Positions 3,335 to 12,927 of a stretch of DNA of 23,165 nt are shown in pieces. Position 1 is the first letter of the stretch. Each line of letters starts with the position of its first letter. Made by a program: the position numbers and the translations under genes. Source of the DNA: a virus; IMG/VR virus record IMGVR_UViG_3300034200_001512, positions 1-23,165 of that record. One strand, written 5' to 3'. The notes under the pieces are model-generated. The model saw nothing but the letters and a program-made list of their open reading frames with translations, ran no database searches and was not told the origin of the DNA.

Positions 3335-3356
3335 GAGCTGAAATTACTTCCAGCTC
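3335..3356 (-). terminator. Weak hairpin between converging genes
   Basis: On the minus strand a 9-bp stem (GAGCTGGAA with TTTCAGCTC, one G-U pair) and a GTAA loop cover the ATPase stop codon. A T-rich stretch follows only after about 8 bases. On the plus strand the stem has an A-C mismatch. It may reduce read-through between the converging genes. Confidence 0.4.
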
Positions 3357-4336
3357 GTTAAGCCTTCTCTTTCTTTCATAACTTCAATGGCAGATTCTTC
3401 TAGGCTTATTCCCTCAATATCATGCCTCACAAGTGCTTCAATAACATGGTCTGGAGTCATGCCTTTACCTGTAAAGGCTGACTTCTGTTCATCGTTTAAT
3501 TGCAGGCCAGAGATGTTTTCGATGAGGTCGAACACTTCCTCGTCTTTTGGCGGCATAACTCGAATGATTTTATTGAAACGTCCAGGACGATTGGTGAGCT
3601 GTGGGCCGAGCTGTTCAATAAAGTTAGTGGTGCAGATAATCAGTGTTGGTACTTTAAACAGACCAGCGACACCATCAAGGAAGTTCAAACAGCTTGGGTT
3701 GTAAATCGAAGAGTTGTTCGCGTAATCCCGACGACCAAAGTCTTCGATGATAATAACCAGCTTTTTCACGTCCTCTGCATATGCTTCCAAAAACATTGTC
3801 GTGAGTCTTTGGAAGTTTACATCACCGCCGACCTGAATGACAGCCGCACCTTCTTGTCCCAGCGTTTGGCGGCAAAAATGGCGAATTAAAGCAGACTTGC
3901 CCATGCCGGGGTCTGAATGCAGCAAATATGCTCGTTTGTTCTTTTTGAACTTTGCTGAAATTTCTTCGGATTTGCTAAAAAAGTTGTTGAAAAGTTTGGT
4001 CATGTACTTGCTTGTCTCAGTCTCAAAAAACTTTTCCTCTTCGAGCTGAATAGCTTTCAAGCCTTTTTCTTCGTCATAAAAATGAATGCCGCAACGAATT
4101 TGATATTTTTCCTTAAACTCGTACTCGGACTCCATTTTCTTTTTGGCTTGCTCTTTGAGGAACTCTTTCATTTCATCTGGAGCTTCTTGAACCGCTGACT
4201 CTTCAATCTCACCGTAATCAATGGTGTATGTGATAACTTTGTCTTCGTGAAAAATAAATGAAGAGCCAGTGACTGGCAATTCAACTCCGTTTTCGATTTT
4301 GGCAGTAGAGAGTATCTTAAGTTTATGATATTTCAT
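3344..4336 (-). CDS. AAA-family ATPase, 330 aa
   Basis: This is a single-domain AAA ATPase. Visible motifs are Walker A (SDPGMGKSA, Lys147), Walker B (LVIIIEDFG, residues 193-201, ending in Glu-Asp), sensor 1 (CTTN, Asn238) and Arg-finger candidates in TNRPGRF (Arg250, Arg253). The first 135 residues are a charged, probably helical N-domain of unknown fold. The overall pattern, with IICTTNFIEQLGPQLTNRPGRF, is like BCS1/proteasome-type AAA proteins. The ATG at 4336 is preferred because it has an AAAGGGA ribosome binding site and its own promoter-like site just upstream. The reading frame stays open upstream into a decayed fibre gene, so a longer start at 4642 is possible but unlikely. Substrate and role are unknown. 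A remodelling or assembly role together with the ClpX-like protein at 4834-5748 is inference. Confidence 0.88.
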   Translation of the reverse strand: MKYHKLKILSTAKIENGVELPVTGSSFIFHEDKVITYTIDYGEIEESAVQEAPDEMKEFLKEQAKKKMESEYEFKEKYQIRCGIHFYDEEKGLKAIQLEEEKFFETETSKYMTKLFNNFFSKSEEISAKFKKNKRAYLLHSDPGMGKSALIRHFCRQTLGQEGAAVIQVGGDVNFQRLTTMFLEAYAEDVKKLVIIIEDFGRRDYANNSSIYNPSCLNFLDGVAGLFKVPTLIICTTNFIEQLGPQLTNRPGRFNKIIRVMPPKDEEVFDLIENISGLQLNDEQKSAFTGKGMTPDHVIEALVRHDIEGISLEESAIEVMKEREGLTSWK

Positions 4337-4366
4337 AGCATTCCCTTTCTTTGTTAATGCAAAGAG

Positions 4367-4395
4367 AATGTAAAGACAAGGCAGGTAAAAGTCAA
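4367..4395 (-). promoter_or_regulatory. Sigma70-like promoter for the AAA ATPase
   Basis: On the minus strand TTGACT (4395-4390), a 17-bp spacer and TACATT (4372-4367) place transcription start near 4360, about 24 bases before the ATPase ATG. This supports the start at 4336 rather than fusion with the upstream fibre remnant. Confidence 0.6.
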
Positions 4396-4396
4396 T

Positions 4397-4426
4397 AAAA
4401 AAAACATTGTAAATTAGTACAGTGTT
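4397..4426 (-). terminator. Terminator-like hairpin with T8 after fibre remnant
   Basis: On the minus strand AACAcTGTA pairs with TACAaTGTT (one mismatch, six-base loop) and is followed by eight T residues. It would end transcripts of the decayed fibre gene immediately before the ATPase promoter. Confidence 0.55.
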
Positions 4427-4453
4427 TATTAGGTAAGTGTATGACGTAAAATA

Positions 4454-4868
4454 CATCTTAATGATGTACTTTACGCCCCTGTTGGTAGGACGAGTTTCAT
4501 TATCGCCAGTGATGGCTGGTGTGGAGACGGAACCAGAAGCGGTAACGCTATGACTGTGGTCCGTACTCATTCCTGCTGAAGCAGTGGGGACATTCGACCC
4601 CCCACATGTTGAGATTGCCTGTTCCGGATTGAACTTGGACATTCTTATATTGAACCGTATTGTGGTCGTGTGTATGATTTTGTGATTGATTTAGCGTGTT
4701 TGCCGCAACTCCTGTGAATCTTGGTCGAGAGTTCACCAACCCATTCTTAGCTGTCTTACCAACTTGATGGCCGCCGACGGAGACGAAGTCTCCCCATAGG
4801 CCATGTTCCTCACCAGCGCAATATAAGCCGCTTTCAAAATCTCCACTCAGCAACACCAGTCTTAACAC
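4454..4868 (-). pseudogene. Decayed tail-fibre collar C-terminus, opposite strand
   Basis: Read on the minus strand, this encodes the C-terminal part of a second collar/HxH fibre: ANTLNQSQNHTHDHN, then SGTGNLNMWG, then after a frameshift GSNVPTASAGMSTDHSHSV, and finally GDNETRPTNRGVKYIIK, which parallels the end of the intact fibre at 2201-2965. The frame breaks in a run of six G (plus-strand C run 4598-4603); five G would restore it. There is no collar domain or N-terminus: the open frame begins inside the last codons of the ClpX-like gene with only a weak GTG start. There is also no stop after YIIK; the frame continues into the ATPase region. A 13-bp inverted repeat with one mismatch (4445-4457 with 4463-4475) covers the last codons. 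I read it as a truncated remnant or a recombination donor cassette, not a working gene. Confidence 0.7.
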
Positions 4869-5748
4869 ACCAATTATTCAAAACAAATTGTCTTGGCTTG
4901 GGATTCATGGCAGGAGCATCAAACTGAGCCATCAAAAACACATCGTCCAATACATTCTGCAACCCTCGTGCTCCTAATCCCTTATCCAAAGCATTCTTAA
5001 CAATCTCTTCTACAGCACTCTCTTCAATAACCAACTCAATTCCCTCACTCTTAAACCACTCACTGTAGCTCTTCAAAACACTGTCTTTACTGTCTAACAA
5101 AATCTTTCTTAAGTCTTCAGCCTTCAAAGCTTCTAAGGAAGCAACAACACTAAACCGCCCCAAGAACTCAGGAATCATTCCGTACTTCACTAAGCTATCT
5201 GTCTTATGTTCTTCCAACCCAACAAACGCTCCAGAACAAATAAACAAAATATTACCAGTGTGAAGTTTTCTAGGGATATTGTTTATCTCATAGCCAATCT
5301 CACTTCCCTCTAATAACTTCAATAGACTCTGCTGCACGCCAACTCCATTGACATCAGGAGAGCCGTCATGGCTGCTCTTTCTTCTAATCTTGTCAATTTC
5401 ATCAATATAAACAATAGCTTTTGATGCTACTTCATCATTAAACTCACACATTGCACACAATTCACTAATGATTTCAGTGACATCTTTACCTGCATAGCCA
5501 GCACTTGTAAACTGAGTGGCGTCTACCATCATAAATTTACAATTCAAGAACTCAGCCAACTTCTGTACAGTAAAAGTCTTGCCACTCCCCGAAGGCCCTA
5601 TCATCAATACATTCGACTTCTTAATATTTGCTCCATGGCGTGTTCTCTTGTAGTGGTTGTAGGCAGCAACAGATAGAGCCTTTTTGGCTTTATCTTGTCC
5701 AACAACAAAAGCATCTAGATAGTTTTTAACGTCTTTAGGAGTAAACAT
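4834..5748 (-). CDS. ClpX-like AAA+ unfoldase lacking zinc domain and ClpP-docking loop
   Basis: This 304-residue protein follows the ClpX AAA+ core closely: VVGQDKAKKALSVAAYNHYKR (residues 15-35), Walker A GPSGSGKT (51-58), pore-1 loop GYAG (84-87; GYVG in ClpX), Walker B IVYIDEIDKI (112-121), VQQSLLKLLEG (138-148), NILFICSGAFVGLE (166-179), Arg finger in PEFLGR (193-198) and sensor 2 GARGL (259-263). Two parts of bacterial ClpX are missing. The N-terminal Cys4 zinc domain is absent, since the protein starts at the AAA+ core. The long stretch between GAFVGLE and the IPEFLGR motif that carries the IGF loop for ClpP binding is cut to about 12 residues. It probably unfolds or remodels proteins without ClpP. 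The ribosome binding site is CAAGGAC. Its 3' end overlaps the fibre remnant, so its last 10 or so residues may be a recombination product. Confidence 0.9.
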   Translation of the reverse strand: MFTPKDVKNYLDAFVVGQDKAKKALSVAAYNHYKRTRHGANIKKSNVLMIGPSGSGKTFTVQKLAEFLNCKFMMVDATQFTSAGYAGKDVTEIISELCAMCEFNDEVASKAIVYIDEIDKIRRKSSHDGSPDVNGVGVQQSLLKLLEGSEIGYEINNIPRKLHTGNILFICSGAFVGLEEHKTDSLVKYGMIPEFLGRFSVVASLEALKAEDLRKILLDSKDSVLKSYSEWFKSEGIELVIEESAVEEIVKNALDKGLGARGLQNVLDDVFLMAQFDAPAMNPKPRQFVLNNWCVKTGVAEWRF

Positions 5749-5757
5749 AGAAAGTCC

Positions 5758-5786
5758 TTGATTGTAGGTCAGCAGTGCTTTATAAC
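5758..5786 (+). promoter_or_regulatory. Sigma70-like promoter for the 5808 gene cluster
   Basis: TTGATT (5758-5763), a 17-bp spacer and TATAAC (5781-5786) give a close match to the host vegetative consensus. Start of transcription would be near 5793, leaving a leader of about 15 bases with the GGAGG site at 5798-5802. Confidence 0.68.
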
Positions 5787-9992: not shown

Positions 9993-10057
9993 TTTTTCTA
10001 GCACATGTCTAACATAATTGTTATATTTCAATTTGACTCAGGTTTTTTCTGAAAATC

Positions 10058-10066
10058 TGATAAAAT
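10058..10066 (+). promoter_or_regulatory. TAAAAT element with extended TGn before tail sheath
   Basis: TGATAAAAT resembles an extended -10 element, 42 nt before the sheath ATG. It is followed directly by the palindrome CTACATGTAG. A TTGACT lies at 10033-10038, but the 22-bp spacing is too wide for sigma70. A second, weaker pair (TTGATT 9989, CATAAT 10013, 18-bp spacer) lies upstream. The 115-base gap has no gene. Confidence 0.48.
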
Positions 10067-10107
10067 CTACATGTAGCGTTTGGCCACAATATTCAGGAGC
10101 CATAGAT

Positions 10108-12927
10108 ATGACAATCGCATTTTCAGTTGGCGGGTCACGAGTTGTTACCCCCGGTGTTTATTCTGTATTTAAAGTACAAGACTCACTACTTAACGTAGTG
10201 GCATCTGCTCGTAATATTCTATTGATTGGTGAGGCTTCTGAAGGCGTTCCCGGCAACATGCTTGACCCAACGACTGCTTTCTTCAGCGACTACCCAACAA
10301 TGCAGGCTTTTTTTACATCAGGCCCAATGGTTGACGCTGCTCGCCAGTTGTTTACTGTTCAACCTTCTGCTGTATTCACTGGTTCAGTTGGCCGCGTTTA
10401 CGCTCAGCAGACTAACCAAGCTACCCGTGCAGAGAAAGCAGTTGCTTCTCCATCTGCATACGGAAAAGTTGTTGCCACCAAGTTTGGTGAGTCAGGCAAC
10501 TTCGTTAAATCACAAATCGTTGCTTCTCCAGAAGTTCTTCCTTCACTTTCGTTTCAGGTTTTGCCCGTTACAGTGAACATGGAAGCTGCAGTCTCTGGTG
10601 TTAAAGAGTCAGGCACTGCTGCTCTTTCCTTCACTGGTGTCGCAAGCTTTGCTTCTAACCTATCTACACTCTTGGGCGCTAAGGCTTCTGTCTCTGGCGG
10701 AACACTCCAAGACGTTGTCCCTACAGGCGCTGACCTTACCCTAGCAGTCTCAGGAAATGACGTAGTTGTTTCTAGTGACCTTGCTTGGAGCAATCTACCC
10801 AAAGTTGGCGAAGTTGCTATCATTCCTCACAGCTCTGGTCTTATTGGTGCTACTGACAAGAACATCGGTAGCTACGTTGTTAAGGCTGTTAGCGCAACAA
10901 CTGTTACTCTCGAAAAAGTCCGTCAGATGGACAACACAGGAGCTAACGCAGTTGCATGGGCTGCTCCAGAAGCAGTATCAACTCCTGTAACAGCAGGCAC
11001 TGCTCCATTCACTTATGCAACTGGCGAAATCATCTTCGTCAACCCTGTTAGCATTTCTGTTGTAGAAGCAGCTAAAGAAGGCTCAGGCGCTTCTCTTGAG
11101 TTGGCTGCAGCTTCTGCTTCTCTCTTGGGCGTATCAGCTCTTGCTCGTATGTCTGCTCGCTCAAACCTACTCAATGCAGCTAACGCTTCATTCGCTACTG
11201 TTTCTGCTTCTGCTGCTTCAGACACACTTACCGTTGCTCTTGGAGCAAACGCAGTATGGGTAGCTGTTCCTAAACTTGGCGACGTTGTCTATGTTTCACC
11301 AAGTTCACAGCTAGCAGGCGGCTCTAAGCAAAACGTCGGCCTCCATGTTGTTATGGCAGCTTCTCCTTCATCAGCAGTTCTTAAGAGACTTGATGGCGGC
11401 TCAGCAGCTTCTGTTTCTTCAGTCGCTGTTGCAGGTAACGAAGCTTTATTGCAAGCTGTTCCTTCAGCAATCAGCTCATCGGTTGCTGCTAAGAAGACAG
11501 TTTCATCAAAAGAAGCTCAAGTTTCAATGAACACCCTCAATACCCTCAGCGGCGAGAGATTCCCCTCTGACAAAATTGGAGGTAAGGTTGTTCTTGAAGT
11601 TTCATATGTCGGCTCAGCCGCTGTTGCTAAGGTTTCAATCGACTCTAACCGTCGTATGAAACTCGTTGCCGACACCGTAGAAGTTTCATTCCCAACAGGC
11701 AAGTACCCAACTCTCGCTTCTCTTGCTGACCACATCAGTGCTCAGTCAGGATGGTCAGCTCGCGTTGTTGACGCTACTTTCAACTCTGCAGCTCCTTCTG
11801 TCCTCGATATGGTAGACGAAGTTGCTTGTAAGTCACTCACATCAGAGCAGGCATTCTCAGGCCGCCTCAAGAATGACTACAGTGCTTGGACTTCATTCTT
11901 TGCATCAACTGTTTCAGTTGTTGACTTTGTTGCAGGCGCTCGCGCTACTAAGGCAGGCTTGCCAGCAGGCGAAGCTTCACAGTCATTCCTCCTTGGTGGA
12001 GCTAAGGGCGCTACTTCAAATGCAGACATCCAAGCTGCTCTTGATGCTGGCCTCAAGATTCCAACCGTTCAAGTTCTTCCATTGTTCTCACGCGATGCTT
12101 ACCTTGACGTTGCTGACGGCTTAACTGAGCCAGAGTCAACCTACTCCATCGACGCAGTCCACGCTGCCCTCAAGGCTCATGTTGCTACTGGTTGGTCTTC
12201 AGCTATCCGCCGTGAGCGCTTCGGTCTAGCTTCATTCTTCGGCTCATTTGAAGAGTCCAAAGCCAAGGCCCAGACACTCAACTATGAAAATGTCTCTATG
12301 ACATTCCAGTTGGCTCGTGCTACAGGCGCTGACGGTAATGCTCAGTGGTTCCTCCCATGGATGCTCCAGTGCTGTATGGCTGCAGGTCGTTCACAAGCAA
12401 TCCTTGGAACTCCCTTACTCCGTAAGTCATTCAACGTCCTCGATGTTAAGCATATCCCTGAGTCTTCAATCTACTCAGATACGCTTATGCGCGACTTCGA
12501 CCCCGCAAGCAAAGCTATGCTCGACGAAGCTATTGAAGCCGGCTTGTTGACTATGGGCGTTGTTGAAGGTGCAGGACTCCGTCTTGTGTCTCCAGACCTC
12601 TCAACCCGTAGCCGCGTCAATGACCCCAAGGCATGGGTTTATGAGCGTAACAACGTATCCTTTATCTTCATCGAAGTTATCCAGACTCTCAGAAGCGTTC
12701 TTGAGAACTACGTCGGCGAGAGAACTACAGACGTTACAACCTCTGAAGTTGCTTCTACTGTCGTCAACGTCCTTTCTTCGTTCGTTACAAGTGGTGCGAT
12801 TGTTGCATTCAGCCGCAACCCACTCGTTACGGACCTTGGAAATGGCTATGCGGTACAGGTTCAAGTTCGCCCTGCTGAGGCCCTTGAATTTATTTCACTT
12901 GATGTAACTGCGACAAGAAATCTTTAA
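10108..12927 (+). CDS. Tail sheath protein, oversized (939 aa), with duplicated insertion domain
   Basis: This is the probable contractile sheath subunit. The N-terminus (MTIAFSVGGSRVVTPGVYSV) is typical of sheath proteins, and the C-terminal part (NNVSFIFIEVIQTLRSVLEN, then a Val/Ser-rich strand region and VQVQVRPAEALEFISLDV) fits the conserved sheath C-terminal domain. At 939 residues it is much larger than T4 gp18 (659). The extra length lies in the middle, where residues about 210-271 and 371-428 are related: PKVGEVAIIPHSSGLIG matches PKLGDVVYVSPSSQLAG, with about 14 of 40 identities and no gaps. The ATG at 10108 is chosen for its CAGGAG site; an upstream in-frame TTG at 10018 would include promoter sequence. 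Codon bias is as strong as in the capsid gene. Tube and tape-measure genes follow. Confidence 0.88.
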   Translation: MTIAFSVGGSRVVTPGVYSVFKVQDSLLNVVASARNILLIGEASEGVPGNMLDPTTAFFSDYPTMQAFFTSGPMVDAARQLFTVQPSAVFTGSVGRVYAQQTNQATRAEKAVASPSAYGKVVATKFGESGNFVKSQIVASPEVLPSLSFQVLPVTVNMEAAVSGVKESGTAALSFTGVASFASNLSTLLGAKASVSGGTLQDVVPTGADLTLAVSGNDVVVSSDLAWSNLPKVGEVAIIPHSSGLIGATDKNIGSYVVKAVSATTVTLEKVRQMDNTGANAVAWAAPEAVSTPVTAGTAPFTYATGEIIFVNPVSISVVEAAKEGSGASLELAAASASLLGVSALARMSARSNLLNAANASFATVSASAASDTLTVALGANAVWVAVPKLGDVVYVSPSSQLAGGSKQNVGLHVVMAASPSSAVLKRLDGGSAASVSSVAVAGNEALLQAVPSAISSSVAAKKTVSSKEAQVSMNTLNTLSGERFPSDKIGGKVVLEVSYVGSAAVAKVSIDSNRRMKLVADTVEVSFPTGKYPTLASLADHISAQSGWSARVVDATFNSAAPSVLDMVDEVACKSLTSEQAFSGRLKNDYSAWTSFFASTVSVVDFVAGARATKAGLPAGEASQSFLLGGAKGATSNADIQAALDAGLKIPTVQVLPLFSRDAYLDVADGLTEPESTYSIDAVHAALKAHVATGWSSAIRRERFGLASFFGSFEESKAKAQTLNYENVSMTFQLARATGADGNAQWFLPWMLQCCMAAGRSQAILGTPLLRKSFNVLDVKHIPESSIYSDTLMRDFDPASKAMLDEAIEAGLLTMGVVEGAGLRLVSPDLSTRSRVNDPKAWVYERNNVSFIFIEVIQTLRSVLENYVGERTTDVTTSEVASTVVNVLSSFVTSGAIVAFSRNPLVTDLGNGYAVQVQVRPAEALEFISLDVTATRNL

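Follow-up and report, generated by a model that had tools for sequence, protein, structure and literature searches.

A phage clade of ClpX-like proteins without the zinc domain and the IGF loop, probably acting independently of ClpP

The ClpX-like gene and its surroundings

The DNA analysed here, called the window, covers positions 1 to 23,165 (23,165 nt) of the IMG/VR virus record IMGVR_UViG_3300034200_001512. On its minus strand, ORF P0001 encodes a 304-aa protein with a ClpX-like AAA+ core. The features of this gene are listed in Table 1. In the lineage of the window, the gene adjoins a run of structural genes. A scan for promoters and terminators around it gave nothing useful, the promoter-like matches being no commoner than in shuffled sequences.

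Table 1. Features of the ClpX-like gene and its protein (window coordinates).
Feature	Position	Strand	Basis
ClpX-like AAA+ protein without N-terminal zinc domain and IGF loop, 304 aa	4834..5748	-	sequence, profile and structure comparison
Shine-Dalgarno AAGGA, 6 bases from ATG; fixes the start at the AAA+ core	5755..5759	-	sequence
Walker A GPSGSGKT, aa 51-58	5575..5598	-	alignment to E. coli ClpX
Pore-1 loop GYAG, aa 84-87; Tyr invariant across the loopless clade	5488..5499	-	alignment
Walker B IVYIDEID, aa 112-119	5392..5415	-	alignment
RKH-loop region, shortened, aa 150-164; ClpX GGRKH motif gone	5257..5301	-	alignment
12-residue linker, aa 180-191, replacing the ClpX segment with the IGF loop	5176..5211	-	alignment
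Arginine finger PEFLGR, aa 193-198	5155..5172	-	alignment
Sensor 2 GARGL, aa 259-263	4960..4974	-	alignment
C-terminal EWRF, aligned with the final ClpX strand (PLLIY); the protein stops there	4837..4848	-	alignment

Other genes nearby showed features of their own. An AAA ATPase gene occupies an open reading frame of 432 aa (3344-4642), of which the N-terminal ~98 residues partly resemble the end of a tail-collar fibre gene. Its homology to contig G002 starts at residue 99, so that translation probably begins near 4348. This ATPase gene is flanked, on opposite strands, by a tail-collar fibre gene and the remnants of a second copy (2201-2965 and 4349-4868), which, together with further copies in G002, suggest a shuffling of fibre genes. 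A 969-aa protein (10018-12927) reads like a tail sheath and is conserved in the close relatives of the window; it had no match in Pfam or PHROG.

A ClpX core without zinc domain, IGF loop and RKH motif

A reading made from the sequence alone had described the protein as close to bacterial ClpX in its motifs, and all of these were found again (GPSGSGKT, GYAG, IVYIDEIDKI, VQQSLLKLLEG, PEFLGR and GARGL). The core features of ClpX, namely Walker A and B, arginine finger, sensor 2 and the pore-1 GYxG, are present. The same reading had noted that the protein begins at the AAA+ core and has no Cys4 domain. This was borne out, and a wrongly placed start hiding a zinc domain was ruled out: the Shine-Dalgarno sequence is well placed before the ATG, and the 57 open residues 5′ of the ATG contain no CxxC.

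The ClpX models TIGR00382 and NF003745 of NCBIfam matched at E values of ~1e-91 and 3e-84, with scores below the curated cut-offs (308 versus 359 bits and 284 versus 370.75 bits). HslU also lacks an IGF loop and a zinc domain. However, HslU has an I-domain and docks on HslV, whereas the phage protein has no I-domain insertion and scored much lower with the HslU profile (180 bits, cut-off 362) than with ClpX. An AlphaFold model was computed from 36 relatives (mean pLDDT 88); its best PDB matches were the ClpX subunits of ClpXP complexes, with TM up to 0.94.

The segment between GAFVGLE and IPEFLGR had been estimated at about 12 residues, too short for an IGF loop. It is exactly 12 residues long, compared with 45 residues, IGF included, in E. 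coli ClpX. Among solved structures, phmmer matched E. coli ClpX best. In the alignment with PDB ClpX (a DeltaN construct), query residues 180 and 182 fell on ClpX residues 195 and 230, so that ~34 residues with the IGF were skipped. We also looked for the loop elsewhere in the protein. It was absent, and the protein follows the ClpX core colinearly along its whole length. A change that had not been pointed out before concerns the RKH substrate loop, which is altered too. A new C-terminal docking tail, of HbYX or HslU-like type, was considered and rejected, because the pattern P-x-x-[IVR]-[YF] falls on the final strand of ordinary ClpX in the alignment.

A single clade of loopless phage proteins

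Two scans of viral contigs revealed ~20 close relatives, with 50-88% identity. Whether other phage ClpX-like proteins share the deletion had been raised with the original observation. All of the ~20 viral relatives lack the zinc domain, the IGF loop and GGRKH, and all have the same 12-residue linker. We measured the equivalent of E. coli residues 252-290 in 214 distinct ClpX/HslU-type proteins. The length was bimodal: segments with the motif had 36 or more residues, the others no more than 6, and none fell in between. One further segment of 7 residues was merely a truncated E. coli fragment. The IGF loop was missing only where the zinc domain was missing too, and it is still present in seven proteins that lack a full zinc-domain signature. 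The double loss shared by ~20 relatives and the bimodal length imply that the observation is more than chance.

In a maximum-likelihood tree from which the trait columns had been removed, the 18 loopless rows formed a single branch (support 100/100). This branch was nested, with modest support, among loop-bearing phage ClpX; thus, the loss of the IGF loop looks derived. The stem of the clade is long, ~1 change per site. Among the best 80 of 504 confirmed matches in bacterial genomes, none belonged to the clade, and all were ordinary ClpX with 36-43% identity. Within the collections searched, the loopless clade seems to be phage-only.

Conservation of the motor

Walker A, Walker B, the arginine finger and sensor 2 are retained in all members of the clade. 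The residue following the invariant pore-1 tyrosine is variable. In the three pairs with unsaturated dS, dN/dS was 0.03-0.11. The losses, the clade, the kept motor and the purifying selection can be read off the sequences themselves. The conserved motor and the low dN/dS speak for a motor that works and threads, and they speak against both decay and a pure poison.

The loss of three functional modules might indicate a decaying or vestigial copy of ClpX with no function. Such a copy would hardly be kept in ~20 divergent phages with all motor residues in place and with dN/dS well below 1 where it is measurable, and we consider decay very improbable.

The sequence-only reading had also proposed that the protein may poison host ClpX by co-assembly. 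As a dominant-negative subunit that lacks the IGF loop, it would assemble with host ClpX, lower the ClpP binding of the mixed ring and thereby block host ClpXP. In favour of this, the core is ~40% identical to that of bacterial ClpX, and ClpP binding depends critically on the IGF loops and is weakened by changes in them (PMC7112951). However, a poison could do without an intact motor, whereas here Walker B, the pore tyrosine, the arginine finger and sensor 2 are invariant. In addition, the long stem of the clade makes shared interfaces less likely. We do not favour this explanation and regard it as quite unlikely.

ClpP and other peptidases on the contigs

In a control set of phage contigs with ordinary ClpX, 15 of 22 encode a bona fide ClpP (198-275 bits). 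On the contigs of the loopless clade we found none, the best match reaching 120 bits; most of these contigs are fragments, which makes the absence weak for any single one. Among contigs of at least 100 kb, bona fide ClpP was present on 13 of 17 with ordinary ClpX and on none of five from the loopless clade, as raw counts that ignore kinship between phages. R192 of E. coli ClpP contacts the IGF backbone, and its change to Lys abolished ClpX binding (PMC7112951). This arginine is kept in 14 of the 15 bona fide ClpP proteins from phages with ordinary ClpX. A second ClpX was not found on any of the 16 clade contigs searched.

Clade contigs often carry divergent ClpP folds, most of them with signal-peptide-like N-termini by a simple heuristic; the same heuristic found no such N-terminus among 20 ClpP proteins of ordinary-ClpX phages. 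The signal-peptide-like serine proteases, one of them lipobox-like, are L094-L099, L287-L289, L291, L112:8307-9287, L114:8306-8974 and L116:4085-4705. In the ClpP-fold proteases of the clade, the catalytic Ser and His are retained, and the third residue aligns as Asp or Glu. The ClpP-like protein of G006 (L113:7865-9361) is apparently split by an intein-like insert within its 499-aa frame.

These folds bear on another possibility, that the unfoldase feeds a different peptidase. The partner could be a divergent ClpP-fold protein of the phage itself, or the HslV of the host, reached through the hydrophobic C-terminus as in HslU. ClpP-fold proteins are frequent on the clade contigs, and in one sub-lineage such a gene lies 1-2 kb upstream on the same strand; the C-terminus of the clade proteins is both conserved and hydrophobic. 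However, most of the ClpP folds, also where they are encoded close to the ClpX-like gene, would sit outside the cytoplasm, judging from their signal-peptide-like N-termini. The conserved C-terminus corresponds to the usual final strand of ClpX and has no added tail, and no match to HslV was found on the 22 clade contigs. Four contigs (G012, G016, G019 and G006) have a cytosolic-looking ClpP fold, but these four proteins differ in the pocket and in the R192 position. They might still dock in some other way, which speaks against ClpP independence. Overall, delivery to another peptidase seems unlikely.

Comparison with known systems

The protein shares the AAA+ core, the motor motifs and the fold with the ClpX of bacteria and with ordinary phage ClpX, such as those of Bacillus phage G (gp258) and PA5oct, at ~40% identity. 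Unlike them, it has no zinc domain, IGF loop, RKH motif or tail after the last strand. The loss of the loop is real but it is not the first of its kind. The proteins of phrog_5534 in N4-like phages (PEV2 gp31, Vibrio phi50-12 and phCDa; ~275 aa), often annotated as ClpX, also lack the zinc domain and the IGF loop and have a linker of the same 12-residue length; for the IGF loss, yeast Mcx1 is a precedent too. The phrog_5534 proteins are far more divergent: the first ~40 core residues are missing, and two of the three sequences compared have Leu in place of the pore tyrosine. The phrog_5534 profile scored our protein at 107 bits, compared with 377-496 bits for true members. In trees they joined the loopless clade, but on a very long branch of ~7-10 changes per site. 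A common origin with the clade is plausible from these data. In the PEV2 record, the run of genes around gp31, with the gp31 region included, is marked as transcribed early. A 569-aa HslU-like ATPase of Erwinia phage RAY (phrog_4339; L124:2492-4201) also has no IGF loop and likewise sits on a very long branch.

A functional parallel, drawn from published descriptions, is Mcx1, the mitochondrial ClpX of yeast. It lacks an IGF domain, and its role is taken to be that of an unfoldase alone (PMC10886707); ALA synthase is activated when Mcx1 partly unfolds it (PMC7077987). Mcx1 works without ClpP, as we propose for the phage protein; it differs in being eukaryotic and in having ALA synthase as its client. 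Similarly, a short or absent ClpP-binding loop in ClpIb and ClpB has been read as protease-independent action, and for ClpIb, whose loop is short, a function that does not involve ClpP was proposed (PMC10149685). However, these are two-ring Clp proteins of another subfamily.

A probable ClpP-independent unfoldase

The explanation that we favour is a phage-encoded unfoldase or remodeller of the ClpX type that acts without ClpP, like Mcx1, and we put its probability at roughly 0.7. There is good inferential support for the suggestion that the unfoldase is unable to deliver to ClpP, namely the loss of the IGF loop, the conserved motor residues and the absence of bona fide ClpP in the clade. From the sequence comparisons we infer a hexamer, an unfolding activity and independence of ClpP. 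The protein would most likely assemble as an ATP-driven hexameric ring, in which the pore-1 tyrosines would thread a client and unfold it partly or fully. The IGF loops make most of the contacts between ClpX and ClpP (PMC7112951). Because they are absent, the ring would not dock on ClpP, and its substrates would be released in a remodelled form. Since the zinc domain and the RKH motif are lost, the usual ClpX adaptors and tags are probably not used, and one or a few dedicated clients may be served instead. Ordinary ClpX itself remodels MuA without ClpP.

We searched the neighbourhoods in nine sub-lineages of the clade for a constant partner gene. Apart from the ClpX-like gene itself, no gene cluster was common to all nine. 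The nearest recurrent neighbours were the AAA ATPase, which recurs in four lineages (in the window at 3344-4348 by its likely start), and a 187-aa protein without a putative function, in three. The client is thus not readable from the gene context. Remodelling of the virion and disassembly of a host complex, both put forward in the sequence-only reading, are candidate roles. It is conceivable, though improbable, that ClpX was made into a dedicated, non-proteolytic tool for a single host or phage complex, perhaps through mixed rings with host ClpX that switch off ClpXP.

A literature search on phage ClpX homologues without ClpP found no paper treating the loopless clade. The finding is thus of a known kind, but a distinct phage clade that lost zinc domain, IGF loop and RKH motif, with a matching absence of bona fide ClpP, appears to be undescribed in the papers searched. 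In this clade, ClpP docking and the recognition of adaptors and tags were dropped together while the engine is still under selection. Its members are predicted to be compact single-ring unfoldases, in which remodelling without proteolysis could be studied. They also lead to a testable rule: phages whose ClpX bears an IGF loop tend to bring their own ClpP, and those with an IGF-less one do not.
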